Shown one piece after another: positions 1,032 through 43,090 of a DNA stretch of 64,000 nt; the first letter of the stretch is position 1; every line of letters starts with the position of its first letter. The DNA is taken from NCBI GenBank assembly GCA_017450965.1, contig JAFSSQ010000044.1, positions 1 to 64,000 of the forward strand, read 5' to 3'. This DNA comes from Clostridia bacterium. Lineage in GTDB: Bacteria; Bacillota; Clostridia; Oscillospirales; CAG-272. The position numbers and the translations under genes were made by a program. Under the pieces are notes generated by a model that searched no databases, had not been told where the DNA came from, and worked only from the letters and a program-made list of their open reading frames with translations.

Positions 1032-3212
1032 ATGTATCGATTTCAGAAAACAGGTATCTTTTTTATCTCGTTATTGCTTTCAGCCGTCTTGCTTGCCGGC
1101 TGCGGGGAAACCGGCATGACCGAAGAAAGCGGCAGCTCTGCTCCGGACGGCGCCTCTGTTGCGGACAGCGCCGTTTCCTTTGTGACGGAGAAAGATCCGC
1201 CGGCCTCGGCGGAAGGGGAAACGTCCCCCGTGCACACGGAAGCGGGGACCGCCGTTCCGGAAACCTCAAACGCCCCGGCGGAAACCGCCAAAACGCCGGG
1301 GGAGACTGCCGCCCCGGACAGTACGCCCGCGGAAACGCAGGGCGTTGCGGTCGCGCCGGTCGTGATAAGAGACGGCGCGATCCCGATGCCGTACCCCTCC
1401 ACGCTGCATATGCAGTTTGAAGAGGATCATCTTCGCGCTCAATACTATCCGCAGGACGGACAGACCCCCGAAGAGCTGCCGCTCTACAAAGGGAAGGCGG
1501 TCTCTCCTCACCGCAACGACTTCACCTTTGTCGTCACCCTGCAGGATCAGCTGAAACGACCGGTAAAGGAAAAGGGCGTCGTTGTGTATTATACGGCGGA
1601 ATCAAAAAACGGGGAAGAAAAAGACCCGCAGCTTTACTACGCCGTGACCAATTCGGAAGGGGTCTTCATCGTTACGATGGATTCGCACGATTATCCCCTT
1701 ACCGCCGGGATCACCGTCGTGGATATCGAATCCGAAACTCTCGCGCTCGACCCCGATCCCGCTTCCGGAAAGCGGTTTTACTGCGACCTGGTAGCTTTGG
1801 ATCCGCACTCGAACACCGGCGGGACGATCCCGTGCGCGCTCAACGTCATCCCGTCCGAGTCCTATCGCTACGCCGACCGGCTTGTCGTTTACGAAGAGGG
1901 AACGCGGCGCCCGATCCCCGGCGCGAAGGTCACGCTCGAATACAGCACCGGCAGCCGTGTTTCCGGGACCACGGGAGAAAACGGGGAATGGACCGGCAGG
2001 ATCGCCGTTGATATCAGGACCGTAACGGTCACCTATACGACGGAAAGCGGCAAAACGGTTACGTTTGCGCGCGGGTTTGAAGTCAAAGACGGCGCGATCT
2101 ATGTCTCCTTTCCGAAGACCGAGCTCCGGACGATCCGGATCAAATGGGTGGATGAAAAGACGCTGGAACCCTGCACGGTGAAGAATGTCACGGTCCAGTT
2201 CACGGCCCAAACCGGAGAAAAGATCTATTATCAGGGGACGAACAGGATCGACCTGATAGACGGGCTCGTCAGCGCCGACGGCACGGTCTTTTTAGAGATC
2301 TACGGGTCGGTCTGTTACAGCACGAAGAATCCGTTTACCGGCGAGGTCACGGAACGGGAAAGCAACGTCAGTTTCCGGGAACACGTTCCGGCCTCCGGCG
2401 ACCTTGTCCTGATGTGGCGGGAGAATCCCGGCAGGATCATCCGGCAGGAGCCGGGTGTAACGTACACGCCGAAGCCGGTAACGGCGGTCTCCGGCAGAAC
2501 GTCGGACAACCGGATTCTGTGGGAACTGTCCCCCGACGGAACGCTGAAGGTAAGCGGTTCCGGCACGCTTACGCTAAGCCATACGGAAGAGATCTGCAAC
2601 GAGGTCTATGCCGCTTCGATCGACGTGCTCCGGCTGGAGATCGGCGCCGGCATTACCGCGGTCGGGACGAGAGCGATGAAGGACACGCAGATCCGGTCGG
2701 TCAAGTTCTCCGACTCGCTTACCGCGCTTGAGAGCTCCGCCTTTCTGAACTGCGCGTCGCTTGCGTCGGTGGAGTGGGGAAGCTCGCTTGCAAGCGTCGG
2801 TTCGCAGGCGTTTTCCAAAACGGCGCTCGCCTCCTCCTATCTTCCCGCGTCGGTGACCGAAGTCGGCACGAACGTGTTTGCAAATTGCAGCAAACTCAAA
2901 ACGCTCGTCATCCCCGAAGGATTGGCCGAAGTCCCGCGCGGATTCGTTTCCGGTTCCGCGCTGGAAACGGCGACGATCCCGTCAAGAGTCAAAACGGTAA
3001 ACGCAAGCGCGTTCCGGAACTGCGTTTCGCTGAAAAGCGTCACGCTGGAAAGCGGCGGCGTTACCGCGATCGGCGCGCGCGCGTTCGAGGGCTGTTTTGC
3101 ATTGACGGCGTTTGATTTCGGCGACGCGCTGAAGACCGCGGCGAAAAACGCGTTCGACGGAACTCCGGTCGCCGGCGCTTTGCCCGTCGGCGTAGAGATC
3201 ACGGAAGCATAA
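1032..3212 (+). CDS. Secreted lipoprotein with BspA-type leucine-rich repeats
   Basis: A 726-residue surface lipoprotein. The start at 1032 has AAGGAG six bases upstream; an in-frame upstream Met at 1011 has no such site. Residues 1-24 form a lipoprotein signal ending in LAGC, so Cys24 should be lipidated. Residues about 25-110 are rich in Ala, Thr, Glu and Pro and look like a flexible stalk. Beta-sandwich modules resembling carboxypeptidase-regulatory or Ig-like folds follow (for example PGAKVTLEY, and a later CTVKNVTVQFTA segment). The last 240 residues hold repeats of the LRR_5/BspA kind, with recurring AFxxCxxLxxVxxP patterns. Such domains usually mediate adhesion or binding to glycans and proteins. 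It is 59 nt upstream of the giant exoenzyme and probably co-transcribed with it. No catalytic motif was recognised. Confidence 0.85.
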   Translation: MYRFQKTGIFFISLLLSAVLLAGCGETGMTEESGSSAPDGASVADSAVSFVTEKDPPASAEGETSPVHTEAGTAVPETSNAPAETAKTPGETAAPDSTPAETQGVAVAPVVIRDGAIPMPYPSTLHMQFEEDHLRAQYYPQDGQTPEELPLYKGKAVSPHRNDFTFVVTLQDQLKRPVKEKGVVVYYTAESKNGEEKDPQLYYAVTNSEGVFIVTMDSHDYPLTAGITVVDIESETLALDPDPASGKRFYCDLVALDPHSNTGGTIPCALNVIPSESYRYADRLVVYEEGTRRPIPGAKVTLEYSTGSRVSGTTGENGEWTGRIAVDIRTVTVTYTTESGKTVTFARGFEVKDGAIYVSFPKTELRTIRIKWVDEKTLEPCTVKNVTVQFTAQTGEKIYYQGTNRIDLIDGLVSADGTVFLEIYGSVCYSTKNPFTGEVTERESNVSFREHVPASGDLVLMWRENPGRIIRQEPGVTYTPKPVTAVSGRTSDNRILWELSPDGTLKVSGSGTLTLSHTEEICNEVYAASIDVLRLEIGAGITAVGTRAMKDTQIRSVKFSDSLTALESSAFLNCASLASVEWGSSLASVGSQAFSKTALASSYLPASVTEVGTNVFANCSKLKTLVIPEGLAEVPRGFVSGSALETATIPSRVKTVNASAFRNCVSLKSVTLESGGVTAIGARAFEGCFALTAFDFGDALKTAAKNAFDGTPVAGALPVGVEITEA

Positions 3213-3271
3213 GCTCCGGATCCGGCGGACGCGCCGTCCCGGAAACGAAAACCGCTCGAAGGAGAGGAAAA

Positions 3272-6200
3272 ATGAAAAAACGGAAGTTGGTTTTGCTGTC
3301 GCTGGTTTTAGCGCTCCTGCTGTCGGCAGGCGCTCTTTCCGCGATCGTGTTCGGGAGCGGTGCGGTCTCCTCTCTCCCCGTGATGGAGGATCCCGCGGCG
3401 CTTCCCGCGGGCAGCTACCCGCGTATGACGCGCCTGTCCACCGGCGCTCTGATGGTCTGCGCCGGACACAACGAATACATCTCCTTCGATTCGGGCGAGA
3501 CTTTTACGCAAAGAACGTCCGATCTTCACAACAACGCCGCCGCCTCGATCGTTACCTCCTCGGGGACGGAGCACACCGGGATGGATCGCGCCAACACCCA
3601 GGCGATCGAGCTCTCGGACGGCTCGATGATGGTAGCGTACCGCACGCATACCCACACGCCGGCGGACTATCAGGAGGGGGACGAGTTCTATACCTCGATC
3701 CGCGTGATGACCCGCTCGGCGGAGGACCGTTTTTTCTCCTATGACAGCGAAGAGATCCTGATCGAACGGACGGCGACCGTCAAGCACGGCTTCTGGGAGC
3801 CGTTCCTTCTTCAGCTTGACGAAAACACCGTTGCGATGTACTACGCCGACGATCTCACCCCCCGCACCGAGCGCGGCTGCTCGTCCTGGTATCAGGATAT
3901 TTCCGTGATGACCTACGACATCCCGACCAAAACGTGGAACAAAACGCCGCAGATCTGCCTTGACGGCATCGATCACGCAAGCCGCGACGGGATGCCGATC
4001 GTTGCCCGTCTCTACGACGGCAGCGGCTACGTGCTGGCGATCGAGGGCTGGATCGACGGGGGCAGCAACCTGGAGATCGAGCTCTGGTTCTCGCAGGACG
4101 GCCTGACGAACTGGACCAACCGCACGATCGTTGCCCGCTCGAATACCAAAGGCTACAACTGCGCCGTTCCCGGCGTCGCCGTCCTGCCGGACGGCCGGCT
4201 CGCCGTTTCCTTCCAGGAGCCGATTTCCGCTGTCGGGCGCACGGTGCTCAACGGCGAAGTCGCCTACAACGGCACGCCGCACGTCGTCCTCTCCTCCGGC
4301 CCTGTTACCTTTGCGAATTCCGCCTCGCTCTCTTCCGCGACGACGAGCGGCTCGTCGGTCTGCTACCGTCTTTCCTCCTCCTTTTCCACCGAAGTATCCC
4401 TCCCCCTTGATTACGGCGGATACGACAAGGCGGGCGTCGTCAACGATACGCAGTACAGCGTCTGGAACTCGGTTTACTGCGCGAACGGCTATCTCTATTT
4501 CTGCGGCTCGGTCGGTCATAACGAGGAAAACGGCGGAACGGTCAGGGCTGTTTCCCACGGCGTGCAGATCTGCCGCGCTCCGGTGAACGGAGCGGAAACG
4601 CCCGATCCCCTCGACGCGGCGCAGGGATGGGAGGCGCTGCATATCACGGAGCCGGATACGCTCCTCCGGCTGATGAACGATCCGGGCGCGTGGGGCAATA
4701 CCGTTGTTCTCGACTGTGACGTCGACCTTTCGCAGGCGACCTCCCCGCTTTCTCAGACGCCGATCGGCGTCTCCTCCTCCAAGGCCTTTACCGGGACCTT
4801 TGACGGGCGGGGGCATACGCTCTCCGGGCTGGATCTGGAAACGAATGAAGCGACCCTGGCCGGCACCGGTCTCGGGCTTTTCGGCTGTGTCAAAAACGCC
4901 TCGGTCCGCGATCTCACGGTCGAGGGCGAGATCCGTTCTTCTCAAAGTTATACCGGACTTGTCGGTTATGCGATCGATTCCGAGCTCTCCGACCTCACCT
5001 CCCGCTTGAGTATCACGCTCACTGGTTCGTCTCTGACCCGTTCGGGCGGCGTCGTGGGGCGGTTTTTCGTGGACGCGAACGCAAAACGGGAGTGCCGGGT
5101 CGCCCGCTGCTCCTTCGAGGGCACGCTGACCGGCCAGACGGTAAGCCGCGCCGGCGGCGTCGTCGGGTTGATCGACTTTGCCTCCGCGACCTCCGTTTCC
5201 GCGACCGTCTCCGATTGCCGCAATACCGGGACCGTCTCCGGCGCGAACCGGATCGGCGGCGTCATCGGCGCGGTCTATAACCCCTCGTCCGTTCAGGGCG
5301 CCGATCTCATCGTCACCCGCTGCCAAAACGACGGTCCCGTTTCGGCAGCCGCGACAAGCGACGGCTTCTGCGGCGGGGTCGTCGGTCTCCTGCAGAACGG
5401 CGCGGCGTGCGTCGGCCGTACCGCGATCCTCGGCTCCGTCAATACGGGGACCGTTTCCGGCGTGCTCAACGCGGCCGGTATCGCGGGGGGCGCGGTCAGC
5501 GACGGGGCGCTGCTGGAAATCGCCCGCTGCCGGAACGCGGGCGCGGTCTCCTCGACCCGCACCGCCTCTCTCTCCGGGACCGGCGCGATCGCCGGCAAGG
5601 CCCGGTGCGTGGAGGTGCGCGACTGCGAAGCGCGCGGCTCCGTGACCGGAGCGTCCGGCGTCGACGTCGGCGGTCTGATCGGATACGCCGCCTACAACGC
5701 GTCTGCGCAGAGCAACGCCGTTTCTCTCTGCCGCAACTACGCCTCACTCACCCTTTCCGCCGCGGGCAACGCGCTCTCCGGCGGCGCGCAAACCGGCACG
5801 ACCGTTTCCTTTGCCGATTTCTATCTCGCCGAGGGCGCCGGCGCTTCCTCTTCTGCCGCCACCGTCCTCCCCGTGACCGCCGATCAGGCGGAATACCACC
5901 ACTTTGACTTTGAGGCCGTCTGGACGATGACCGAAAACGGCCCGACCCTGCGCGATTTCGTCGGCGGATACGCCGAGCCGCTCAGCCGGGGCACGCCGGA
6001 GAGCTACGCCGTCCGCTACGTCTGCGACGCAGGCAGCGACGCAAACGACGGTCTTACCTCCGCCGCGCCGCTCGCCACCCTTCCCGCGGCGGCGCAGCAG
6101 CTCACGGGCGGCGGCGTCATCGTCGTCTGCGGGCCTCTTACCGTCACGAACGCCTCGCTTGCCGCCAACGCCGTCTATCCGATCACGATCACTTCCTATT

Positions 6201-9200
6201 ATAACGGCGCCGACTACCGCGCGGGCGGCAACGCCGCAAACGACGCGCGCTTCATCGCGGCGACCTCGGTCACCGCGCAGTCCGGCGGCTGCTGCGGCCT
6301 GCGCTTCAACGGAGACTATACGCTTGAAAACCTCGATCTCGTCTGGTCGGGCAGCAATCCCGCTTTCATTCTGGCGTACCATAACTTCCGGATCGCCTCC
6401 TCCGTCTTCTCCGTCACGGCGGATCCCGCCGACGCGGAGACCGCGTCGAAAAACGGGATCCTGATCCTCGGGATGAACGTGAGCGAGACGTCCGCCGCCT
6501 CGATCACCCGCGATCAGACCGTCGTCCTCGAGGGCGACTGCCGCTACAACTGGTTCCGCGCGGGCGGACGGAACGGAACGCAGGAGACCTATTCCGGCAC
6601 GATGACGATCCGCCACGCGTACGGCGACGTGCTGGCGCCCTCCTCCTCGTCCGGCACCGCTTCCGGCGCCGCTCTGCTCGGTCATAATAACTGGGACGGG
6701 GCGAAGATCGTATACGATTTCTCCGGCGGGACGATCCGCGGCAATCTGTTCGTTCTCGGCTACACGAGCGCTCTCGTCCCGTCCGCCAAAGCCTCGGTCA
6801 CGGTCAACTTCCTCGGCGGCCGGGTCCTCGGGGACGTTGTGGTCCGGCAGAACGCAAACTATCCCGCCTCGCTTGACGGGACGGTGGAGATCAACGTGCC
6901 GGACGCCGCGCCCTTCTCCCGCCTGAAAACCGCGGGCACGGACGGCGTGGACTTCTGCGTACGGGCGGCGGAAAGCTGGCTTGACCGGCTCGACTTTTCC
7001 GGCGCGGCGACGGAAGGGAAGCTCTGCTTCGTGACCGACGCGGCGTCCCGCGCCGCTTCCGCCTCCTGGCTGATGCTGGCGCGGACCGGGACGGAGGAAA
7101 ACGTCCTGGATCTTCAGGGCTTCCAGCTCCGTGATAACGGAAACGGCGCCGCGCTGCGCGCGGTCTTCCGTCTTCTCGGCTCTTTCACGGAGGATTATAT
7201 GGACTACCGGACCGTCGAGTTCGGCATCCTGGTCAAAAGTGAAAAAAATCCCATCCCCTTCCGTTACTTCCCGGGCGGCGGACAGCACGGCGACGAACGG
7301 AACGACATCCTTCCGGACAACAACCTCAATCATACGACGGGGCACTTCAAATCGCTCAACTACCTTTGCAGCGCGCAGACCGGTTCCCCCGTCGTGCTCG
7401 ATTATTACTACGACCCGGAGGAGAGCGATCTCGTTTCCTTTGCCACCGCGATCCGCTTTGCCGACGAGGAGCAAATCGCGCTGTATGCGCGCAAAGGTTA
7501 CGCTTTTTGCCCGTACGCGGTCCTGCGCGACGGAGAGGGGAATCTCGTGACCCTCGCCGGCGGGACGGTCTCCGCCTCCCTTTACGATCGGGCGGCCTCG
7601 CTCCACGAAAAGCCGGGCGTCAGCGCCGAATCCGCGGCGATCGCGGAGTCCATCCTCCGCCGCTGCCAGCGGATCACGCCCGTGGAGGAGCTCAACACCG
7701 CTTCCGTTCCGGGCAGCCACGCCGGAGAGGAGGCGGGACAGGCGACGGTCGAGTACGACTACCGTACCTACGCCGTGCAGAATACCGGCTCCGCCGGTCT
7801 CGGCGTGACCGCCTGCTATTACCCGCGCGTCAAACGGATGAAGGACGGCCGCTACATCCTCTTCTACCAGAACGGACAGGTCAGTACCAATATGTACTGC
7901 GCCACGGGCGATACGCCGACGTCCTTCTCCGGCAAGACGATCATCTTCCGCGCCTACGCGACCGAGCTTGCGGACGGGACGGCGGATTCCGGCTATTTCT
8001 CCAGCGGGGACGCCCTCGTCCTCTCAAACGGCGATATCCTCGCCGTTACCGCCCTGCGGATCAATCACGATTATACAAAAAACGTCGCCGGCGGCGGGCT
8101 GGTCCTCAGCCGCTCGACCGACAACGGCAAGACCTGGAGCAAGGCGCGGCTCATCTATACCGGCAACTGCTGGGAGCCGCATCTGATCGAGCTGCCGGGC
8201 GGGGAAGTGCAGGTCTACTTCACGCATATCGCGCCGAAGTGGTATGCCGATACCTACCGCAGCGAGCGCCGCTCCAGCGGCGTCGGCCTGATCCGCTCCT
8301 ATGACGGCGGGGAGAGCTGGACGCCCTACGTGGCCGAACCGCCCTACGCCGCCGAGCGCGTGATGCAGCAGTATATCACCACGCTTTACGGGGTGCGCCA
8401 TTTCACCGATCAGATGCCGGTCGCCTGCCTCCTCGCCGACGGCACCCTCGCCGTCGCGGCGGAGAGCAAGCAGGCGGACAACAGCACCTTCAAGATCTCC
8501 CTCGGCTATTCGGACGATAACTGGGCAACGGGCCTCGGCATCGACGAGACCGGCCCCGCCGACCGCCTTGACAACTTCGTTACCGGCGCCGGTCCCTACC
8601 TTGTCGCCTTCCCCTCCGGGGAGACGCTCCTCTCCTACAACCGCAGCAATACGATGATCGTCCGCACGGGCGATGCCGGCGCGCGCGCCTTCGGCGGCGA
8701 GTCGACGGTCTTCGGGACGAGCGGCTTCTGGGGCTCGCTGCTCGTCGACGGAACGCACAGCGCCGTCGCCGCGTTCCCGAGCGTTTCGGGCAGTACCTCC
8801 GCGATCCGCACGGTCACCCTCCGCCTCAATCACGCGCTCTTTGCGCAGGAGGCCTCCCCCGCGATCGACGGATATATCGCCGACTGGCTCTCAAACACGG
8901 ACGCCGTCTTCCTCGGCGCCAAGACCCAGGCGCAGGTTACCGTCCGGACCGCCTACGACGCGGAAAACGCCTGTTTCCTCGCGGAGCGCAGCGACAGCGC
9001 CCTCCGCTCCTCCGACACCGTGACCCTGTACCTCCCGGCGGCGGGCGGCGGGATCTACACCCTCACCCTTGACCCCTCCGGTACGGCGACGCTGAAAAAG
9101 GACGGGAGCCCGGTTTCCTTCCCCGGCGCGTGCGCGGTTTTCGCGGACGGCACCTTCGACGATCCCTCCGACGAAGACGGCGGCGTGCTCTGGGAGGTTT

Positions 9201-12200
9201 CCTTCCCCCGCGCGCTTCTCAACGATCTCGGCGGCGTTCTCCGCTTCACCTATACCTTTACCGCCGAAGATGAAAACGGCTCTACCGTGACCGAAACGCC
9301 GGTCGGCGTTGTTCTGAACGAGGCAAACTCGCCGACGTGGTTCAAGACGTATTTCGGAGAAACAGAGCCAGAAACGCCGGCGGCCGACGCGGTCTTCGTC
9401 GACGGGCAAAACGGCTCCGACGCAAACGACGGGCTTACCGCCTCCTCGGCGGTCGCCACCTACGAGCGGGCGTTTTCGCTGCTCACGCCGTCCCGCTCGA
9501 CCGTCGTCGTGGTCCATACCGTCCCGGCGGCCGCCGATTACGTTTTCCCCGCGTATGACGGGACCGTAACGCTCACCGCCCGGCAGGGAAGCTTCGACTA
9601 CGCGAAAAACAACAACGCGGGGATCCGCGTCCTCTCCTCCTGCGCCTTTTCCTCCGACGTGATCCTCGACGGGATCCGTCTCCTCGCAGAGAGCGACGGC
9701 GCGCGGATCTGCGCCCGTTTCCACAACGTGACCGTGACCGATACGGTCGTCTCCGCCGGGGCGCTGCCATCCTTCGTCGGCGGGTATCTCGTCTCCGACG
9801 TCGCACTCAACGTCGAGGGGCACATGACGGCGGCGGAGGTCAGCCACACGGGCAATCTTGTCTTCTCGATCTCCGGCGGCAAATGGCGCAGCATCGTCGG
9901 CGGCAACGTCCGGCTCGGGAAAAACGCTCCCGTCGGGACGGTAAACGGCGCGCTCACCCTCACCCTCGGCGGGTCGGTCGAAGTGGAGTCCGGCGCGATC
10001 ACCGACGATATCGGCGTCGACTATATCGCCGCCTCCGGCGCGAATATCGCCCATGGCTCGGTCACGCTCGAGATCACCGGCGGAACCTACAAGACGCCGG
10101 TCTACGCGATCGGGCACCTGGGCAAGTATTTCAACTTCACCGCCGCCAACGGCAAAACCGGGACCGACGGACTGCAGCAAAGCTACGATACGCTCTATAA
10201 CGCCGGGGTCACCGTCCTTATCTCGGGCGGGGACTTCACCTCGCCGAAAGCGACGGAGATAAAGGCCCTCCAGGTTCCCGGAGAGACCGCGCTACACGCG
10301 GACTGCGCTTTCACGGTCGCGGGCGGTTCCTTCTCGGATACGCTCGCCTTCTCCGCCCTCGGCGTTCTCGGAAACACGACCGCCGCAGGCGTGCCCGCCG
10401 GGCATAAAACGGTGGATTTCCTCTTCGTCAACGGGAGTCGGACGGCGGAAAAGCACGTCCCGCGCCTCGCCTGCTGCGGGGACAGCATCACCTTCGGCAC
10501 CGGCTTTACCGCGCAGGACGGGTATCTCGACGTTAACTTCTCCTACCCGGCGCAGCTTCAGCGCCTCTGCGGCGATACGGCCGTTGTCGGGAACTTCGGT
10601 TATCCCGGCTCGAACGTCACGTCAGGCTCCTACGCAAAGTATTATCAGTCCCTTTGCTGGAATCTCCTTGAGGATTTCGATCCGGACTTCGTCCTCTTTG
10701 CGCTCGGGACCAATAACGCCTCCCTGATGCCGGGGGGACTTGCCGATTTCAAAAACAGTTATATCGCGATGATCGGCGCACTCCGCGAGGCGTACCCGCA
10801 GGTCAAGGTCTTTATGACCACCGCGCTTTACCGATTTGACAACGCGGACCGCAACGAGATGGTCGACAGCTATATCATCCCCGCACAAAAGGAGATCGCC
10901 GGCCGCTTCTTCGGCTTCACCCGGCTCGTCGATCTTAACACCCTCTTTCGTCCCTACGGCAGCACGACGTATTATAAGGATAAACTGCATCCCAACAACC
11001 TCGGCTATTCCAAACTCGCCGAGATCCTCTTTGATACGCTCGATCTCACGGGCGCGTCCTTCCCCTCCTTCCCGCCGATGGAAGTCGGCGACGGGATGGA
11101 CGTCGACGCGGCCGAACTGGACGGATGGGACGATACGCTGCTGGCGACCGGTACGGCGTCTCCCGCTCCCGTCTATGAGAACGGCTTTTCCGATCCGGAC
11201 GCACTGTCCTCGCTCCGCGTCCTGTACGGCGGCTTTGAAGTCAGGGAGGGCGCGCTCTGCGCGTCCTCCTCTCTTTCTTCCGGGCAGTCCACCCTTCTGT
11301 TCCCGACCGACACGCTTGACGATTTCATCGCCGAGTGCGATTTTCTCGGTCATATCCGCGGCGGCGGGCTGATCATCCGCTCTGACGGAGAGCGGGCCTC
11401 CGCGTCCGGCGATACCGCTTTTTACGGATATCACGCCTTCATCGGCAACGCCGGTACGCTCGGCGCGCTCGGCTGCGCGGGCAGCGCGGGGACGTGGAGC
11501 GGCAACCTCTTCGTTTCCGCCGCCGATGTGACCGAGGTCGGTTCCGATCTTCATCTGCGCGTCCTCGCCGTCGGCAACGTTCTCGTCTATACCGTCACGG
11601 ACAAGACGACGGGGAAGGAGGTCTTCCGCTCCGTCTACCGGATCGGCGACCACCCGAACGACACGATCTCCGCGCTTTCGGGGCTCGTCGGGTTCCGTAT
11701 GGTCAACGACGGCGGCGTCGGCCGGGTCGATAACGTCAGCGTCCGCCCGCTCAAAAGTACTTCCGACGCTTTCGACCTCCCGGACGGGAAAGCGTTTTCC
11801 GCTTCCGTCACTCTCGCTTCACAGGAGACGCTCACCCTCCTCGACGGCGAGGGGAACGGACTGTTTGTCTGCTTTGATCCGGAGACGGATCTGATCCTGT
11901 TCTTCCGGCGGGAAAACGGCGTTCTTTCCCGCGCGGCAGAGCAGGCGATGACCCTGACCGAGGGCAGAGAATATCCGTTCGGCGTTTCGCGCTCGGACGG
12001 GATCTGCCGGATCTTTTTCGGATACGCCGATTATCCGGTCTTCGAGACCGTGTGCGCGGCGGGGCCGATGACGCTCGCGTCCTCTTTTGCGTTCGTTTCC
12101 AAGCTGACGGACGCGCCGGCGGCCGCGGCGGAGACCTATCTCAATCCCGTCGCCTCCGGCCCGGACCCCGACGTTTATTTTGAAGACGGCGTTTACTATC

Positions 12201-13042
12201 TCTACACGCATCAAAACGGCGCCGTCCAGGCTCAGACCTCCGTCGATCTGATCCACTGGTCGGCGATGCAGCCGGTCTACACCGTCGATCACAGCGTGAC
12301 CGATATCACCGCCTATATGAGCCCCAACGTCTTCAAGAGCGGCGATACCTATTACCTTTTGATCGCCTCCAAGACGAGAAACCTGTCCGAATACCGCATC
12401 CGTTACGCGACAGCCGCCTCTCCTCTCGGGCCTTTTACGATGGCAAGCGAGGATTCGTTTGTCAACGACGTGCAGGAGATCGGCGGCGCGCCCTTTATCG
12501 ACGAGGACGGAAAGATCTACCTGACCACCGTCCGCTTCGGCGGCGGCAATCACGTTTATATTCAGGAGATCCGGGCGGAAAACGGCGTGATCACGCCGCT
12601 GACGCCGGGGACGCTCGTCGTCTCGCCGACCGAGCACTACGAGTGCGACGGTTACGGCAAGATCGCCGAAGGCGGCGTCATCGTCAAGCATAACGGGCTC
12701 TATTATATGCTTTACGCCTCCGGCCATTATAAAGGGCACTACGGCGAAGCGTGCGCCGTCAGCGAAAGTATCTGCGGACCGTATACGAAAGTCGGCTATA
12801 ACGAGGTCCTCCCGTATACCGACGAGGCGGACGGCGTCGGCGACTGCGTCTTCGTTTCCTCGCCGGACGGCAGCGAGCTTTTTGTGATGTACCACCGCCA
12901 CGCCGTGATCGGCAACGAGGGCGCTTCCCGCGTCATCTGCATTGACCGTGTGGTCTTTGAGCCGGACGAAAACGGCGGCCCGGATATTCTCCGGATCGTC
13001 GGTCCGACGAACACTCCGCAGCCCGTACCCTCGCACAACTGA
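3272..13042 (+). CDS. Giant secreted multi-enzyme: two Asp-box propellers, SGNH hydrolase, GH43-like
   Basis: A 3256-residue exoprotein with a clear signal peptide (residues 1-30) and GGAGAGG before the ATG. Visible modules: sialidase-like Asp-box propeller at about 48-436; GLUG-like repeats (GxxDGxGHTLSG type) at about 480-900; beta-helix opening with CDAGSDANDG at about 912; second Asp-box propeller at about 1515-1853 (STDNGKTW, SYDGGESW); CBM9-like domain at about 1864-2030; second beta-helix opening with FVDGQNGSDANDG at 2039; SGNH/GDSL esterase at about 2398-2600 with Ser2405 in GDSIT, GTNN, and Asp2570/His2573 in DKLHPN; LamG/DUF1080-like domain at about 2633-2950; GH43-like propeller at about 2957-3256 with the DPD base motif. 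There is no wall anchor or C-terminal membrane segment. The domain order suggests coordinated trimming and deacylation of a complex glycan; the exact substrate cannot be read from sequence. The GH43 module has Gly where the modulating Asp is expected (see findings). Confidence 0.9.
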   Translation: MKKRKLVLLSLVLALLLSAGALSAIVFGSGAVSSLPVMEDPAALPAGSYPRMTRLSTGALMVCAGHNEYISFDSGETFTQRTSDLHNNAAASIVTSSGTEHTGMDRANTQAIELSDGSMMVAYRTHTHTPADYQEGDEFYTSIRVMTRSAEDRFFSYDSEEILIERTATVKHGFWEPFLLQLDENTVAMYYADDLTPRTERGCSSWYQDISVMTYDIPTKTWNKTPQICLDGIDHASRDGMPIVARLYDGSGYVLAIEGWIDGGSNLEIELWFSQDGLTNWTNRTIVARSNTKGYNCAVPGVAVLPDGRLAVSFQEPISAVGRTVLNGEVAYNGTPHVVLSSGPVTFANSASLSSATTSGSSVCYRLSSSFSTEVSLPLDYGGYDKAGVVNDTQYSVWNSVYCANGYLYFCGSVGHNEENGGTVRAVSHGVQICRAPVNGAETPDPLDAAQGWEALHITEPDTLLRLMNDPGAWGNTVVLDCDVDLSQATSPLSQTPIGVSSSKAFTGTFDGRGHTLSGLDLETNEATLAGTGLGLFGCVKNASVRDLTVEGEIRSSQSYTGLVGYAIDSELSDLTSRLSITLTGSSLTRSGGVVGRFFVDANAKRECRVARCSFEGTLTGQTVSRAGGVVGLIDFASATSVSATVSDCRNTGTVSGANRIGGVIGAVYNPSSVQGADLIVTRCQNDGPVSAAATSDGFCGGVVGLLQNGAACVGRTAILGSVNTGTVSGVLNAAGIAGGAVSDGALLEIARCRNAGAVSSTRTASLSGTGAIAGKARCVEVRDCEARGSVTGASGVDVGGLIGYAAYNASAQSNAVSLCRNYASLTLSAAGNALSGGAQTGTTVSFADFYLAEGAGASSSAATVLPVTADQAEYHHFDFEAVWTMTENGPTLRDFVGGYAEPLSRGTPESYAVRYVCDAGSDANDGLTSAAPLATLPAAAQQLTGGGVIVVCGPLTVTNASLAANAVYPITITSYYNGADYRAGGNAANDARFIAATSVTAQSGGCCGLRFNGDYTLENLDLVWSGSNPAFILAYHNFRIASSVFSVTADPADAETASKNGILILGMNVSETSAASITRDQTVVLEGDCRYNWFRAGGRNGTQETYSGTMTIRHAYGDVLAPSSSSGTASGAALLGHNNWDGAKIVYDFSGGTIRGNLFVLGYTSALVPSAKASVTVNFLGGRVLGDVVVRQNANYPASLDGTVEINVPDAAPFSRLKTAGTDGVDFCVRAAESWLDRLDFSGAATEGKLCFVTDAASRAASASWLMLARTGTEENVLDLQGFQLRDNGNGAALRAVFRLLGSFTEDYMDYRTVEFGILVKSEKNPIPFRYFPGGGQHGDERNDILPDNNLNHTTGHFKSLNYLCSAQTGSPVVLDYYYDPEESDLVSFATAIRFADEEQIALYARKGYAFCPYAVLRDGEGNLVTLAGGTVSASLYDRAASLHEKPGVSAESAAIAESILRRCQRITPVEELNTASVPGSHAGEEAGQATVEYDYRTYAVQNTGSAGLGVTACYYPRVKRMKDGRYILFYQNGQVSTNMYCATGDTPTSFSGKTIIFRAYATELADGTADSGYFSSGDALVLSNGDILAVTALRINHDYTKNVAGGGLVLSRSTDNGKTWSKARLIYTGNCWEPHLIELPGGEVQVYFTHIAPKWYADTYRSERRSSGVGLIRSYDGGESWTPYVAEPPYAAERVMQQYITTLYGVRHFTDQMPVACLLADGTLAVAAESKQADNSTFKISLGYSDDNWATGLGIDETGPADRLDNFVTGAGPYLVAFPSGETLLSYNRSNTMIVRTGDAGARAFGGESTVFGTSGFWGSLLVDGTHSAVAAFPSVSGSTSAIRTVTLRLNHALFAQEASPAIDGYIADWLSNTDAVFLGAKTQAQVTVRTAYDAENACFLAERSDSALRSSDTVTLYLPAAGGGIYTLTLDPSGTATLKKDGSPVSFPGACAVFADGTFDDPSDEDGGVLWEVSFPRALLNDLGGVLRFTYTFTAEDENGSTVTETPVGVVLNEANSPTWFKTYFGETEPETPAADAVFVDGQNGSDANDGLTASSAVATYERAFSLLTPSRSTVVVVHTVPAAADYVFPAYDGTVTLTARQGSFDYAKNNNAGIRVLSSCAFSSDVILDGIRLLAESDGARICARFHNVTVTDTVVSAGALPSFVGGYLVSDVALNVEGHMTAAEVSHTGNLVFSISGGKWRSIVGGNVRLGKNAPVGTVNGALTLTLGGSVEVESGAITDDIGVDYIAASGANIAHGSVTLEITGGTYKTPVYAIGHLGKYFNFTAANGKTGTDGLQQSYDTLYNAGVTVLISGGDFTSPKATEIKALQVPGETALHADCAFTVAGGSFSDTLAFSALGVLGNTTAAGVPAGHKTVDFLFVNGSRTAEKHVPRLACCGDSITFGTGFTAQDGYLDVNFSYPAQLQRLCGDTAVVGNFGYPGSNVTSGSYAKYYQSLCWNLLEDFDPDFVLFALGTNNASLMPGGLADFKNSYIAMIGALREAYPQVKVFMTTALYRFDNADRNEMVDSYIIPAQKEIAGRFFGFTRLVDLNTLFRPYGSTTYYKDKLHPNNLGYSKLAEILFDTLDLTGASFPSFPPMEVGDGMDVDAAELDGWDDTLLATGTASPAPVYENGFSDPDALSSLRVLYGGFEVREGALCASSSLSSGQSTLLFPTDTLDDFIAECDFLGHIRGGGLIIRSDGERASASGDTAFYGYHAFIGNAGTLGALGCAGSAGTWSGNLFVSAADVTEVGSDLHLRVLAVGNVLVYTVTDKTTGKEVFRSVYRIGDHPNDTISALSGLVGFRMVNDGGVGRVDNVSVRPLKSTSDAFDLPDGKAFSASVTLASQETLTLLDGEGNGLFVCFDPETDLILFFRRENGVLSRAAEQAMTLTEGREYPFGVSRSDGICRIFFGYADYPVFETVCAAGPMTLASSFAFVSKLTDAPAAAAETYLNPVASGPDPDVYFEDGVYYLYTHQNGAVQAQTSVDLIHWSAMQPVYTVDHSVTDITAYMSPNVFKSGDTYYLLIASKTRNLSEYRIRYATAASPLGPFTMASEDSFVNDVQEIGGAPFIDEDGKIYLTTVRFGGGNHVYIQEIRAENGVITPLTPGTLVVSPTEHYECDGYGKIAEGGVIVKHNGLYYMLYASGHYKGHYGEACAVSESICGPYTKVGYNEVLPYTDEADGVGDCVFVSSPDGSELFVMYHRHAVIGNEGASRVICIDRVVFEPDENGGPDILRIVGPTNTPQPVPSHN

Positions 13043-13085
13043 AAAAAGCCCGGCGGCAGTCTCAGACTGCCGCCGGGCTTTTTCG
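13042..13085. terminator. Strong bidirectional terminator
   Basis: A perfect stem of about 20 bp (AAAAAGCCCGGCGGCAGTC with its complement) flanked by A and T tracts. It sits between the convergent giant exoenzyme and the flavin-like protein gene and serves both. Confidence 0.93.
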
Positions 13086-13542: not shown

Positions 13543-13692
13543 GGAGGGTTTTATAAGAAAGAAAACGGAAATGATACGATTTTGCTTTTCGGGCAACCGT
13601 TTTCAGATTATTTACTACATTTTTGTCTTGCTTTTTCCGGTTTTTTGTGTAAAAATATATACAGAGTATTTTTGTTTTACAGGAGGAATGCA

Positions 13693-16600
13693 ATGCGAGC
13701 TTCAAAACTGGCGGTTTTGCTCCTTGCCGCGGCGCTTGTCGCCGCGCTGGTCGCCGTATCGGTCCACGCGGATACGGATACGGTGTATCTCGACGGGACC
13801 GGCGCCACGGCGGGGGCGTACACGGATATTACGTCCGCGTTCAACGCGCTGCCCGCCTCGGGCGGTACGGTCGTCGTTACCGGCGATACGACGGTCGGTA
13901 CAAAATCGGCCGGCGTGACTTTGCCGACAAAATCCGGAAAAGTTACGATCCGCGGGGAAGGGAACGTCACGCTGAATATCGCGCGTTCTCTCACCCTCGG
14001 CGGGGAACTGCAGATCCGGGATATCCACCTGCACTCCGCGTCGGGCAACACAAACGGGAACCTGATCGCGAAAGGCAAAAAATTCACGCTCGGCCCCGGT
14101 CTCACGACCTCAAACGCTTCCGGCGCGAGCGTGTTTGCGATCTTCGGCGGCGCGGCGAGCGGCACGGTGACGTATCACACGGATGTCACGGTGCTCGGCG
14201 GGACCTACCGCGCGATCTACGCCGGCAGCTACAACGGCACCCTGAACGGCACGTCGTCTCTGACGCTCTCGAACGCCGTCTGCACCGGCACGGTCTCCGC
14301 GGGCAACTTCCAGGGCACCTGCAACGCAACGAAGAGCATCACCGTCGATCTGCGCGGCGGCGCGACCGTTTCCGCCGGCACGTGGAAGGAAACGCCGGAT
14401 ACCATTCTCGTGGACGACGGATACGAGTACGTCCTCTCGGGCGGCGTCTATTCGCAAAACTCGCTGACGCCGGCGACAAGCGACGTCGTCTATCTTGACC
14501 CCGCCGGCACGAGCTCGCATACGGAAGACGTATACAGCGGCTTTGCCGCGGCGCTGAACGCCCTGCCCGCCTCGGGCGGCACGATCGTGGTCTGCAGCGA
14601 TGCGACGATCACGGACGGCAGCGCGAACACCTACTACGTTCTGGCGCCCAAGCCCCTTCACATCACCGGCGAAACGGCGGACGTCAGACTCACGCAGACC
14701 CAGTCCATCCTCTTCGGCGAGGACGTTACGATCGACAACATCACCTGGGCGGAAAACGCGGGCGACGGCTATTCGCACATCTACGCGCAGGGGCATCATC
14801 TGACCTTCGGTGAAAACGTTACCTGTCTGCTCCTCAAGGGCGTCCGTTACCCCGCGCTGTTCGTCGGATCCCGGGCGTTTTCCGGGGCGGTCGGCGCGAT
14901 CACGAACGGAGACGGGACGGTCACCGTACAGTCCGGTACCTTCTGGGCGATCTTTGCCGGCGGACTCAACTCCGCCAGCTCGTACAGCGGAACGGCGACG
15001 ATCGCGTTTGAAGGCGGGACGGTCACCGAGAAGATCACTCTGTCCGGCTCCAGCGCCGCCGTCAGCGGAACGGTGAACGTAACGGTCAGCGGCGGTCAGG
15101 TTGCCAAAGTGGAGGCGGGCGCCACCTTTATCGGAACGAACACCGTCACGGTGACGGGCGGCCGGATCAACGCTCTGACGAACGTGAACTCCGTGATCGA
15201 TCTCACGGGCGGCAAGACGGTAACGGTCGGCGCCGCACTCAGCGCGGGATCGCTTGTCGGCGGCGGAACGCTGATCATGGAGAGCGGCTCCTCGCTTACG
15301 GTGGATGCCTTTACCGGGAACGCGGCGGTGCAGATCCCCGTTCCGGAAGGAGACAAGACCTATCTGACGATCAACGATCCGTCGACCGCCGGCACGGTAT
15401 CCTATACGCCGGTCGGGACGGAAACTCTGACCAGGACGGAGGAAGATGGAAAAGTGAAATACACCGTTACGTCGGCGGCGCCGGCGCCCACCGTCGTTTA
15501 CCTTGATCCCGCCGGCACGAGCGCGCATACCGAAAACGTCTTTACAACGCTCGCGGACGCGGCGGCGGCGCTCTCCTCCAACGGCGGAACGATCGTCGTA
15601 TGCAGCGACGCCGAGATGAACGCGGACAGCGGGACGCCTTATCATTTCCCCGCAAAAGCGATCCGCATCACCGGCGAGACCGGAACCGAGAAACTGACGC
15701 AGCGGAGAGATACCTACCTCAACGGAGACTTCGTCATCGACAATATCACCTGGGTCAACTCCGTTTCCGATTCCCACTCCTTCCTCTTTGCACAGGGGCA
15801 CGACCTGACGGTCGGGGAGAACGTCGTCTGCGTGCCGAACGGCTCCGCCTATCTCTGCCTCCTCGCCGGCTCCCGGAACGGCGTCGCCGGCGCGGTCGGC
15901 AGCATCTCCGGCGCCGACGCGACCGTTACCGTGAAGTCCGGCTCCTTCCGCGCCATCTTCGGCGGCGGCCTCGGCGTCTCCTATCAGGGCAACGTCAGCA
16001 TTCTCTTTGAAGGCGGATACGTTGTGCAGAATATCAGCCTCGCCGGCTCCGGCGCGGCGGGCACGGTGAACGGCACCGGCAGCGTCACGTTCTGCGGCGG
16101 CAAAGTGGACGGCAACATCCAGAAGAATACCGCCGCCGGCGTGTTTACCGGAACGTCGGTCATCACGCTCAAGGGCGGCGAGCTCGGCGGCGTGGCCGAT
16201 CTGACGCCCGCGATCGACCTCAGCGAGGGCGGAGCGCTTACCCTCAACGGCTCCGCGGCCGTCTCGGGACTGACCGGCGGCGGCAAGCTGACGCTCGGCG
16301 GCAGCGCGGCCGTGACAACGCCTTCGTTTACGGGGAGCGTCGAGCTGAAGATCAAGAACCCCTCGAACGACTTTGCGTATCTCACGGTGACAGACGAGAA
16401 CACGGTCGGGACGGTGACCTACGTTCCCGCGATCGGCGGAGACACGCTGACCCGGACCGTCTCGGACGGGCAGGTGCGCTACACGGTCAACGTTCCCACC
16501 GTCACCGTCAAGATCACCTACTATAACCCCGAGGGAGAAAACGCCAAGCAGCCCACCCTCCGTCTGGAGCGCGGCTACTCCTCGGCGTCGACCGTTCTGA

Positions 16601-19290
16601 ACGATTACACGACCGGCAAGGACGGCTGGAAGAACTACATCGTGGCGGAACTGACCCCCGGTCTCTACGACTGCATCCTGTACGTGAACAATTCCGCCAA
16701 CTACGCGAGAAAGTATTTCTACATTTCGGGACAGGAGACGGGGACCGTCGAGTACGACCTGCCGCTCTATCCCTACGCGGCAAACAACCACGAAGAACCC
16801 AGATTTTCCCGGCCGACGGACGAGATCACCGAGAACTTCTGGAACTTTGCGAAGACCAACGTCCCCGACTTCACCCTCGTCACGCCGGTCTTCACAATGG
16901 AAAAATACACGCAGGATATCAAGCGGTTCATGAACAACGAAGACCTCTGCGCTTTCGTGGACAGCCTGAGCAGCCCGTATCTGCACGTATATTATCCGTT
17001 CGCGCTTACGCCTCTCGGCAACCGCTGCCCCGTTCTCGTCTTCACCAAGGATCAGACAAAGACGGGGATCACCCTGCCCGACCTCGCCGAGCAGATCGCT
17101 TCCGGCGGGATCCGGGAGATTCTGATGATCGTCGGCGGGCAGCACGGCAACGAGCCGAGCGGCACGGACGGCTCGCTGCAGCTGGCGTACGATCTGTGCG
17201 GGGCGTACGGCGAGGAGGTGCTCGATCATTTCGGCGCCATCGTTATGATCCCCTGCGTTTCCTGCGACAACAACCAGCGCTTCGCGAGAGAGTACCCGGA
17301 CGGGCTCAATTCCAACCGGGATCTGGTGTACCTCTCAAAAGAAGGTTCGCAGAACATCGCGTATATCTATAAACTCTTTATGCCGACGGTCTTCGTTTCG
17401 GCGCACGAGGATAACGAAAACAATACCGTCGATCCTTCCGATAACTCGATCGCCGATATGCGCAGTATGTCCGTCGAATCCGCCACCGTCCCGAATAGTC
17501 CCCTCACCAGCGTCAAGGGACTGGTCGACGGAACGGAGACCCTCCTGACCCTCGGACAGGCGCAGATGATGAACCGCCTGATCCAGACCGCGCAGGATCA
17601 GGGCTTCCGCGCGATGCACTACTACGATCCTTCCTCCTATCCGGTGGCGGAAAAGAACTACGCCGCGGTGCGCGGTTCCTATTCCTTCCTGATCGAGATC
17701 CAGCGGATGTGGACCGGTAAGAACAACTATGACTTCTCGGTCAAGGAAATGGTCACCGCCATGAAGAATCTGGTGGCGGAGATCATCTCGGTAGACGAGA
17801 CCGAGCCGAAGACCATCGCCCAGACCGTCTATGAGGGCAGAGAAAACGCAAAGGTCGCCGCGTTCAGCGCCGACCGTCTGTTCGCGCTGGGCACGTCGTC
17901 CGGCGTCGCCGGGACGGATCCCGCTCCTTCGGTCTACGTGGACGGCACCTACAAGGACGCCTCCGCGACCAAGAACTGGAAGTTCCCCATGACGGTCACG
18001 GGCACCCGTGTGCTCCCGCTCTCCTACGTGATCCCCGCGGATCTCGATCACATCGACGAGATCCTCCATCTGCTTGAAATGCACGGGATCTCCTACGTGA
18101 AGCTGGAAAACGGCGCAACGCGCACCCTGAAGCAGTATTCCACGGTCGATACGAGCGGAGATCTGAGCAAGCTGGACGTTACGATCGGCGCGGCCGCCGA
18201 GGTGACCTTTACAAGCGGCGCGTACGAGATCTCGCTGAACAGCAGCGACGCGTACCTGATCGCCTACCTCTTTGAGCCGGACTCCTACCAGGCGTCCTTC
18301 CAGTACGTCAGCCTCGTCAAGATGGGCTATCTCGCGCTCTCCGATCCGCTCTACCGCAACGAGAGCGAAACGCCGGCCGGGCTTCCCGCGCTCTCCTTCT
18401 CCGGCGCGTCTCTGACGCTGGAGAACGACCTGACCTTCAACTTCAAGGCGAACGCCGCTCTCTTTACCGAGTACGGCTACGCCGATCCGTGCGTCGTCTT
18501 CTCCTTCAACGGGGAGGAAACGACGGTCACGGAATACCGGGTAGAGAACGGGAAATACGTCTTCTCCTTCACCGGCATCGCCCCGCACCAGATGAACGAC
18601 GTTCTCACGGCCGCGCTCCACGCTTCTCTATACGGGAAGAACGTGTCCTGCGTCATGGAGTACAGCGTCGGCGAGTACTGCTACGACGCGTACGTGCAGT
18701 ACGGCGACGCGCAGTACGCCACGCTGCACCGGCTGCTTGCGGATCTCTTGCAGTACGGCGCCCGCGCGCAGGAGTATATGTCCTATCGCACGGACGCGCC
18801 GGTGACCGACCGGCTCGCGGTCTATCCGGAGCTGGCGGCGTGCGCAACGGCGGGTACGCCGACCTACACGACCGTCCGGGATCTTGCGGTCGAGATCGTG
18901 GCCTCTCCCGCCGCCGTCTTCAAGGGCGCGGGATTGAACCTGCAGAACACGGTCGCCATCCGCCTGAAGATCCAGACAAACGAGGATCCCGCCACGCTCA
19001 CGCTGAAGGCGGAGAAGGAGGGGGGCGGCGAGTACGAGGTGCCCGGAACGGCGTTCCTATCGGCGGGAACGGGACTGTATTATGCGTTCTTTACCGATTT
19101 CCACGCCGGCGAAATGAAAAAGACGGTTTACTTTACCGTATATCAAGGGGAGAACGCCGTCAGCAACAAGGTGGCGTACAGCATCGAGTCCTACGCGTAC
19201 GACAAGCAGGGAGACGCCGGATTGACGGATCTCCTTGCGGCGATGATGAACTACGGCGAGTCCGCCCGCCTGTATCGGGCGGAGCAGTAA
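13693..19290 (+). CDS. Giant surface protein: beta-helix repeats plus M14 zinc carboxypeptidase
   Basis: A 1865-residue secreted protein. The start at 13693 follows AGGAGGAATGCA, and residues 1-27 are a signal peptide ending near VHA. Residues about 28-940 hold three related beta-helix modules, each opening with VYLD(P/G)xGT and an AAxxxLxxxGGTIVV core. A linker of about 150 residues leads to a peptidase M14-like domain: HGNEPSG gives zinc ligands His1151 and Glu1154, FVSAHED gives His1238, and the catalytic Glu is probably Glu1335 in FLIEIQ. The C-terminal 350 residues contain two related modules that each end in an LLxxxxxYGxxAxxY pattern often seen in clostridial exoproteins. It could release amino acids from glycopeptides or crosslinks, or act like a deacylase of the AspA/AstE branch; the sequence does not decide. 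A 39-residue peptide gene follows 13 nt downstream. Confidence 0.88.
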   Translation: MRASKLAVLLLAAALVAALVAVSVHADTDTVYLDGTGATAGAYTDITSAFNALPASGGTVVVTGDTTVGTKSAGVTLPTKSGKVTIRGEGNVTLNIARSLTLGGELQIRDIHLHSASGNTNGNLIAKGKKFTLGPGLTTSNASGASVFAIFGGAASGTVTYHTDVTVLGGTYRAIYAGSYNGTLNGTSSLTLSNAVCTGTVSAGNFQGTCNATKSITVDLRGGATVSAGTWKETPDTILVDDGYEYVLSGGVYSQNSLTPATSDVVYLDPAGTSSHTEDVYSGFAAALNALPASGGTIVVCSDATITDGSANTYYVLAPKPLHITGETADVRLTQTQSILFGEDVTIDNITWAENAGDGYSHIYAQGHHLTFGENVTCLLLKGVRYPALFVGSRAFSGAVGAITNGDGTVTVQSGTFWAIFAGGLNSASSYSGTATIAFEGGTVTEKITLSGSSAAVSGTVNVTVSGGQVAKVEAGATFIGTNTVTVTGGRINALTNVNSVIDLTGGKTVTVGAALSAGSLVGGGTLIMESGSSLTVDAFTGNAAVQIPVPEGDKTYLTINDPSTAGTVSYTPVGTETLTRTEEDGKVKYTVTSAAPAPTVVYLDPAGTSAHTENVFTTLADAAAALSSNGGTIVVCSDAEMNADSGTPYHFPAKAIRITGETGTEKLTQRRDTYLNGDFVIDNITWVNSVSDSHSFLFAQGHDLTVGENVVCVPNGSAYLCLLAGSRNGVAGAVGSISGADATVTVKSGSFRAIFGGGLGVSYQGNVSILFEGGYVVQNISLAGSGAAGTVNGTGSVTFCGGKVDGNIQKNTAAGVFTGTSVITLKGGELGGVADLTPAIDLSEGGALTLNGSAAVSGLTGGGKLTLGGSAAVTTPSFTGSVELKIKNPSNDFAYLTVTDENTVGTVTYVPAIGGDTLTRTVSDGQVRYTVNVPTVTVKITYYNPEGENAKQPTLRLERGYSSASTVLNDYTTGKDGWKNYIVAELTPGLYDCILYVNNSANYARKYFYISGQETGTVEYDLPLYPYAANNHEEPRFSRPTDEITENFWNFAKTNVPDFTLVTPVFTMEKYTQDIKRFMNNEDLCAFVDSLSSPYLHVYYPFALTPLGNRCPVLVFTKDQTKTGITLPDLAEQIASGGIREILMIVGGQHGNEPSGTDGSLQLAYDLCGAYGEEVLDHFGAIVMIPCVSCDNNQRFAREYPDGLNSNRDLVYLSKEGSQNIAYIYKLFMPTVFVSAHEDNENNTVDPSDNSIADMRSMSVESATVPNSPLTSVKGLVDGTETLLTLGQAQMMNRLIQTAQDQGFRAMHYYDPSSYPVAEKNYAAVRGSYSFLIEIQRMWTGKNNYDFSVKEMVTAMKNLVAEIISVDETEPKTIAQTVYEGRENAKVAAFSADRLFALGTSSGVAGTDPAPSVYVDGTYKDASATKNWKFPMTVTGTRVLPLSYVIPADLDHIDEILHLLEMHGISYVKLENGATRTLKQYSTVDTSGDLSKLDVTIGAAAEVTFTSGAYEISLNSSDAYLIAYLFEPDSYQASFQYVSLVKMGYLALSDPLYRNESETPAGLPALSFSGASLTLENDLTFNFKANAALFTEYGYADPCVVFSFNGEETTVTEYRVENGKYVFSFTGIAPHQMNDVLTAALHASLYGKNVSCVMEYSVGEYCYDAYVQYGDAQYATLHRLLADLLQYGARAQEYMSYRTDAPVTDRLAVYPELAACATAGTPTYTTVRDLAVEIVASPAAVFKGAGLNLQNTVAIRLKIQTNEDPATLTLKAEKEGGGEYEVPGTAFLSAGTGLYYAFFTDFHAGEMKKTVYFTVYQGENAVSNKVAYSIESYAYDKQGDAGLTDLLAAMMNYGESARLYRAEQ

Positions 19291-23381: not shown

Positions 23382-23417
23382 GGCGGTATGACGGTTTTTC
23401 CGCCATACCGCCGTTTT
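23382..23417 (+). terminator. Weak terminator or attenuator between GH43 genes
   Basis: GGCGGTATG and CATACCGCC form a 9-bp stem extended by CGG/CCG around a T-rich loop, followed by GTTTT. The short T tract and the ribosome site of the next gene directly after it suggest partial readthrough. Confidence 0.6.
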
Positions 23418-23427
23418 GGAGGAAACC

Positions 23428-26428: not shown

Positions 26429-27001
26429 ATGAAAAAGATTATTTGCTTTGTTTTCGCGATCGCTATGGTGATGACCCTCGCGGTTTCCGCTTTTGCGGCT
26501 GATGCCGACACGACGGCGAACGCTCAGGAGATCAAAACCTTCCTCGCCGGCCTTACCACGAAGTTCCCCGGCCTCGGTTTCAAGGCAGAGGATCTGAACG
26601 CGGCCAACAACTACATTGACAGTTATATCAACACCAACACCATCACCGCGGCGCAGGTCACGGCGATCAAGACCGCTCTCAACGAAGGCGTTGCGATCTA
26701 CAACGCGAACAACAAGGAAGAGACCAACCTGAGCAATCTTCCCGCAAACGTGAAGACCGACATCCTGGCCAAGGCGAACGAGGCCGTTTCCGTTCTCGGG
26801 CTGAGCGTCAGCACCAAAAACGGGACCGTCAAATTCGTGCGCGTCTCTGACGGCGTAGAGGTCTACACCACTTCCGCCACGATCGTGAAGTCCACCGGCG
26901 CCGAGTCCGGCGTTCTTCCGATGGTCATCACCTGCTCTGCCGCCGCCGTTCTCCTTGTGGGCGCTTACCTGATCACCCGCAAGCTCGGCGCAAAGGCTTG
27001 A
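26429..27001 (+). CDS. Small surface protein, candidate sortase substrate
   Basis: A 190-residue protein with a signal peptide (about residues 1-23, ending SAFAAD) and a C-terminal hydrophobic helix followed by RKLGAKA, the layout of a sorting signal. The residues before the helix read KSTGAESGVLP, with a TG pair but no LPxTG. The mature part is Asn/Ala-rich and helical, then has a short beta segment. The next gene is a sortase whose start overlaps this gene's stop, so this protein is the obvious candidate substrate. It could also stay as a simple C-terminally anchored membrane protein, because the motif is non-canonical. Confidence 0.8.
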   Translation: MKKIICFVFAIAMVMTLAVSAFAADADTTANAQEIKTFLAGLTTKFPGLGFKAEDLNAANNYIDSYINTNTITAAQVTAIKTALNEGVAIYNANNKEETNLSNLPANVKTDILAKANEAVSVLGLSVSTKNGTVKFVRVSDGVEVYTTSATIVKSTGAESGVLPMVITCSAAAVLLVGAYLITRKLGAKA

Positions 27002-41557: not shown

Positions 41558-41564
41558 CATGGCC

Positions 41565-43079: not shown

Positions 43080-43090
43080 TTCGGTCTCCT

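Follow-up and report, generated by a model that had tools for sequence, protein, structure and literature searches.

The stretch of DNA analysed here (the window) comprises 64,000 nucleotides of a contig from a gut-type Clostridia bacterium of an uncultured genus (Oscillospirales, CAG-272), and carries a gene for a protein of 3256 residues. The features of this gene, together with one relative located elsewhere in the window, are as follows.

3272-13042, + strand: reading frame of 3256 aa, open throughout, with a strong hairpin terminator of its own behind it
3272..3370, + strand: N-terminus resembling a signal peptide, residues 1-33, without a lipobox (predicted from the sequence)
3371..4606, + strand: propeller 1, residues 34-445, GH93-like (profile against PDB: 3a71, 5e-8; 2ydt, 2w5n)
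4607..5977, + strand: GLUG-repeat region, residues 446-902 (Pfam Glug, 3.6e-4 when the segment is scanned alone)
5978..6916, + strand: beta-helix-like region 1, residues 903-1215 (no Pfam match; other large proteins encoded in the genome contain homologous regions)
6917..7741, + strand: linker domain, residues 1216-1490 (no Pfam match; found, among the loci compared, only in orthologues)
7742..8869, + strand: propeller 2, residues 1491-1866, six-bladed (alignment, model with pLDDT 91.5, fold search, hhalign)
8870..9349, + strand: beta-sandwich, residues 1867-2026, called CBM9-like in the original prediction (model; it follows propeller 2 in its paralogues)
9350..10441, + strand: beta-helix-like region 2, residues 2027-2390 (a separate helix-SGNH gene, G000:C66, has a counterpart with 70% identity)
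10442..11041, + strand: SGNH esterase, residues 2391-2590, with Ser2405, Asp2570, His2573 and a GTNN block at 2479 (Pfam, 2e-19; NCBIfam AxeA1, 1e-21)
11069..12121, + strand: two LamG-like beta domains, residues 2600-2950 (model; in separate proteins, GH43 is likewise preceded by this pair)
12122..13039, + strand: GH43, residues 2951-3256, with base Asp2965, acid Glu3133, Gly3071 at the position of the pKa modulator, and Asp3191 (alignment, fold, tree)
13044..13082, + strand: hairpin terminator, different from those of the orthologues L001 and G004
38391-40046, - strand: paralogue of propeller 1 (sequence relative)

The frame can be regarded as a functional coding sequence, because it has an orthologue (L001, 3674 aa, 85% identical, spanning residues 1-3254) and because dN/dS between the orthologues and the window copy lies between 0.12 and 0.41 across all modules, the top values being those of the linker against G004. 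The values between orthologues are 0.14–0.19 for GH43, 0.13–0.15 for SGNH, which is one of the modules with the lowest dN/dS, and 0.17–0.22 for propeller 2. The protein runs from the putative signal peptide through propeller 1, the GLUG region, beta-helix 1 and the linker domain to propeller 2, and on from the CBM9-like sandwich through beta-helix 2, the SGNH esterase and the two LamG-like domains to GH43. Pfam recognizes GH43 (2956-3233, 5e-33), GDSL_2 (2401-2579, 2e-19) and BNR_2 (1612-1753, 2e-7) in the whole protein, and the AlphaFold models of residues 1490-2025 (pLDDT 91.5) and 2599-3256 (pLDDT 84.4) are confident. The module list given in the original prediction is upheld, with GH43, SGNH, BNR and GLUG recovered by Pfam, and the CBM9-like and LamG-like regions modelled with good confidence as all-beta domains; the CBM9 label itself is unconfirmed. 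The beta-helix, linker, CBM9-like and LamG-like segments had no Pfam match when scanned alone, and the two beta-helix assignments, made from sequence pattern and paralogues, are provisional.

The protein is probably secreted. Pfam found no dockerin or cohesin of its own, although both domain types occur in the genus; a genome of the same order (G090, 1.9 Mb) has 64 dockerin and 5 cohesin matches, which suggests a large cellulosome in that organism. Sortase anchoring, a lipobox and an own dockerin were considered and rejected, as no such motif was seen by eye or by Pfam, despite the presence of a sortase gene at 26998-27804. Whole-protein searches of NCBIfam and PDB returned no matching architecture, and the module order was not found outside three sister species in the searches made, in agreement with the earlier statement that no standard enzyme is known to have it. 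Multicatalytic CAZymes from gut bacteria, such as a CE15-GH8 fusion (PMC8417218), fused acetyl-feruloyl esterases (PMC7110780) and the enzymes of Ca. P. polyenzymogenes (PMC5831590), similarly combine several catalytic and binding modules in one secreted chain, but they consist of other families in another order, and no GH93-SGNH-GH43 fusion was found in the abstracts examined.

Separate relatives of the modules and a shared C-terminus

The giant gene is present in three of the six genomes of the genus: the window genome (G000), G002 (the contig carrying L001) and G004, where its two parts lie at the ends of contigs C54 and C67. It was not seen in the other three genomes, which are less complete (69–88%). 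The protein has a mosaic build: most of its blocks are also encoded by genes of their own, either in the window genome or in sister species. The block formed by propeller 1 and the GLUG region is found in three further species of this genus as a protein of about 995 aa with a C-terminal dockerin (two by Pfam, 1e-12 and 8e-11, the third by genome scan). Propeller 2 and the CBM9-like sandwich form a stand-alone unit in over 30 proteins from the genus and its family, several of which are encoded in the window genome; beta-helix 2 and SGNH occur alone in G000:C66 (70–78% identity); and the LamG-LamG-GH43 block is found on G000:C52, in two copies, and elsewhere. No separate relative of the linker domain (1216-1490) was found among the loci compared. 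The gene would have originated by the fusion of propeller 1-GLUG, beta-helix 1 and linker, propeller 2-CBM9-like, beta-helix 2-SGNH and LamG-LamG-GH43 blocks. Within the linker (6917-7741), the first part is 73% identical to the G004 copy (L155/L074) and the second about 48%, with the break at the ends of contigs C54 and C67; a swapped module or a repeat may account for this drop.

A third propeller, with relatives on G000:C30, follows GH43 in L001 and G004, but is absent from the window copy, which has its own terminator. A frameshift or assembly artefact can be dismissed as the cause, given that the C-terminus ends cleanly and the terminator is different. Identity between L001 and G004 at four-fold sites is about 53–71% up to residue 2690 and 80–100% beyond, and their third propellers are 99% identical at the amino-acid level (dN/dS 0.08 between these near-identical copies). 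The C-terminus shared by L001 and G004 looks like a tract recombined between species. A simple loss of propeller 3 from the window copy is, therefore, not settled, because both copies of this propeller lie on the recombined tract. The C-terminus may still be exchanged among species in this way. Directly upstream of the orthologue (L001, 1715-3550), a serine recombinase gene ends just before the start codon; in the window, this place is taken by three tRNA genes and a gene for an LRR lipoprotein, and the similarity between the two loci stops at the start codon.

Propellers, esterase and gene neighbourhood

The best PDB matches of the propeller 1 family profile are GH93 exo-arabinanases (3a71, 5e-8; 2ydt, 2w5n and 2ydp), whereas the best non-GH93 match reaches 8e-4, and sialidases all rank behind GH93. 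Glu176 and Glu258 align with Glu170 (WEP) and Glu242 (MP...E) of Arb93A, the numbering being taken from the alignment and corrected for a chain offset of 14; the second conserved glutamate column is Ala in the E242A mutant chain 2ydp, which places this column at Glu242. The catalytic residues of GH93 are E170, E242 and Y337 (PMC11813348), and the profile alignment stops before the position of Tyr337. Propeller 2 is modelled as a six-bladed propeller of the sialidase superfamily with Asp boxes, a fold common to GH33 and GH93; fold searches place 5hx0, GH33 and GH93 close together (Z 33.0 to 30.9), and its PDB sequence matches are mostly sialidases, which score better than GH93 over stretches covering mainly the Asp-box part. 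GH93 is, thus, the best solved relative of the propeller 1 family, but not of propeller 2. In hhalign, however, propeller 2 matches the propeller 1 family with a probability of 99.4, the WEP and MP...E motifs line up, and both Glu1635 and Glu1731 are invariant in 39 homologues. On the basis of the profile match, these aligned motifs and the invariant glutamates, both propellers are treated here as GH93-like rather than sialidase-like, propeller 2 less certainly so. The two had been described as propellers of different type; they are instead related six-bladed domains, not clearly of two activities. They resemble the GH93 exo-1,5-alpha-L-arabinanases (Arb93A, 2w5n/2ydt; Abnx, 3a71/3a72) in having six blades and both catalytic glutamates, at WEP and MP...E. 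The solved GH93 enzymes are, by contrast, fungal and single-domain, whereas two or three copies of low identity are found per bacterial fusion here.

The SGNH module contains all the conserved blocks, GDSITFG, GTNN and DKLHPN, with their Ser, Asn, Asp and His residues, and Ser2405, Asp2570 and His2573 are located where they had been predicted. Its closest relative is the acetylxylan esterase AxeA1 (NF042968, NCBIfam), with which it shares the SGNH domain and the Ser/Asp/His residues, but its alignment covers no more than the final part of the model, and its score of 76.4 bits is far below the cut-off of 700.

The window genome has 25 GH43 matches (two of them below the cut-off) and three GH51-type matches above the cut-off. 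Three tandem GH43 proteins are encoded at 40058-44845; the triad is kept in the two that were read, and the third matches arabinanase models. L-arabinose isomerase (AraA) was not found in this genome, which is about 98% complete, so arabinan is not obviously a food source; either another isomerase is in use, or the cell does not use the products as arabinose. Behind the giant gene lies a gene (13582-19290, + strand) whose product of 1902 aa combines three beta-helix-like repeats with an M14-like carboxypeptidase domain (QHGNEP, weak Pfam score); the gene occupies the same place in G004 and is missing from that place in L001. A plasmid search was negative.

The GH43 module and its clade

The GH43 module is modelled as an intact five-bladed propeller (Z 36.9, rmsd 2.1 over 291 residues to 4qqs). 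Alignment to 4qqs, 3kst, 4nov and 6ms2 shows that base Asp2965 and acid Glu3133 are retained, whereas the pKa-modulating Asp of the triad is replaced by Gly3071, and Asp3191 occupies the position at which His stands in most GH43 proteins (GxGH to GxGD). The module is, thus, GH43 by fold and descent, not by a full catalytic triad. Its closest relatives, 4qqs, 3kst and the GH43_26 arabinofuranosidases AtAbf43C and SaAraf43A, share the five blades, the base Asp and the acid Glu, but differ in the modulator and in the WAP and GxGH motifs. The catalytic triad of GH43 has been described as invariant (PMC7809346), and no natural loss of the pKa-modulating Asp was found in a literature search whose coverage mostly excluded subscription journals.

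This substitution is not confined to the giant protein. Among 54 GH43 domains from the window genome and its relatives, the modulator position holds Gly or Ala in 20 members of the close group, Asp in 33 others, and Gly in the divergent L078. The Gly/Ala group also has MSP in place of WAP, and GxGD or another variant in place of GxGH. In a maximum-likelihood tree of 77 domains, restricted to those keeping base and acid, 32 fall into a single clade (support 100/99) drawn from the genus of the window and a second genus in the family (G035): 23 have Gly, three Ala, two Tyr and four Asp, so that 28 of the 32 have Gly, Ala or Tyr. Four divergent large GH43-like proteins (C82, C86, C32 and C64), in which Asp is absent from the aligned column and the alignment is unsure, were kept out of this argument. 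A search of 391 sampled genomes of the class (E <= 1e-30) for the change from Asp to Gly elsewhere returned relatives only in the window genome and in G242, both copies of which keep the Asp. Two further GH43 proteins with the Gly adjoin the giant gene (21921-23375 and 23416-26295). The latter (+ strand) has an unusual membrane-anchored layout, with a beta-helix-like part, two apparent mid-protein membrane segments and GH43. Three proteins of the clade that keep Asp carry a dockerin (L077, G000:C70; L020, G003:C71; L137, G005:C8), and the Gly/Ala members that were looked at seem to be without one.

Two crystallised laboratory mutants bear on this position, as we take D128 (2exj) and D147 (3d61) to be pKa-modulating Asp residues. 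The first is, according to its PDB title, an engineered D128G GH43 xylosidase with xylobiose, and the second a D147A arabinanase with arabinobiose; in AtAbf43C, the D283A mutation of the same Asp abolished activity, and His408 was dispensable (PMC12493170). Given that changes engineered here either left the enzyme inactive or were used for crystals with bound sugar, the module is, by analogy, more likely to bind sugar than to cleave it, and only poor turnover would be expected. It is not decaying, as its dN/dS shows. Loss of catalytic residues in most homologues, which the original prediction had named as contrary to it, comes close to being the case for GH43.

The same module could nevertheless be active, with Asp3191 or another group replacing the lost Asp in a fully multicatalytic protein removing decorations in turn. 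Base and acid are kept under purifying selection, most, but not all, clade members have Asp at the GxGH position, and the GH43_24 exo-beta-1,3-galactanases (Pc1,3Gal43A), another GH43 branch with one triad residue missing, are active with an altered triad (PMC7939473). This precedent for the natural replacement of a triad residue means that Gly3071 does not in itself preclude activity; in GH43_24, however, it is the base that is missing, with Gln in its place, rather than the modulator. Both Asp residues are missing from some of the proteins (IAGF with S, IGGQ with A, IYGY with Y), and the Ala mutant of AtAbf43C speaks against an active module, so we consider full multicatalysis unlikely. The stepwise removal of several decorations, as first proposed, is supported only in part: it is weakened by the loss of the triad Asp from GH43 and most of its close clade, and by the relatedness of the propellers, and recognisable catalytic residues are kept only in the SGNH and GH93-like modules. 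A surface adhesin, most modules of which would merely bind plant fibre or mucin glycans with catalysis incidental, would fit the many non-catalytic modules, the defective GH43 and the beta-helix regions common in the large proteins of this genome, but it is rather improbable, as the SGNH residues and propeller Glu pairs are kept and the dN/dS of SGNH is among the lowest. Least probable is an enzyme for mucin or other host glycans, with the propellers as sialidases and SGNH as a sialate or mucin O-acetylesterase: GH33 sialidases are among the best fold and sequence matches of propeller 2, but for propeller 1 the GH93 match is better by orders of magnitude, the WEP and MP...E motifs resemble those of GH93, and the neighbours are arabinanase-like GH43 proteins.

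We favour, at about even confidence, a secreted fusion built from blocks and targeting arabinan or pectin, with GH93-like and esterase activities and binding modules. Its target would be a plant cell-wall polysaccharide rich in arabinose, either pectic arabinan or arabinoxylan, from the chain ends of which the GH93-like propellers would cut short arabino-oligosaccharides via Glu176/Glu258 and Glu1635/Glu1731, while the SGNH module would remove acetyl esters, and the beta-helices, sandwiches and Asp-less GH43 would hold the protein on the glycan. Somewhat more tentatively, the GH43 branch expanded in this genus, in which Asp has given way to Gly, Ala or Tyr while purifying selection has kept fold, base and acid, may represent an enzyme that has become a sugar-holding module, used inside a giant fusion with active GH93-like and esterase modules.

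The gene shows the assembly of a giant multi-enzyme protein, with separate relatives of its parts at hand and end modules exchanged between species. Its most interesting aspect is, nevertheless, the natural loss of a GH43 catalytic residue rather than the length of the protein. The Asp-less branch is a natural test case for whether the GH43 triad is truly indispensable and for how enzymes turn into binding modules; if the proposed role is correct, it would be the natural counterpart of the sugar-bound catalytic mutants made in the laboratory. Annotation pipelines would score such GH43 domains as arabinofuranosidases or xylosidases, and the degrading capacity of such gut genomes may, thus, be overstated.
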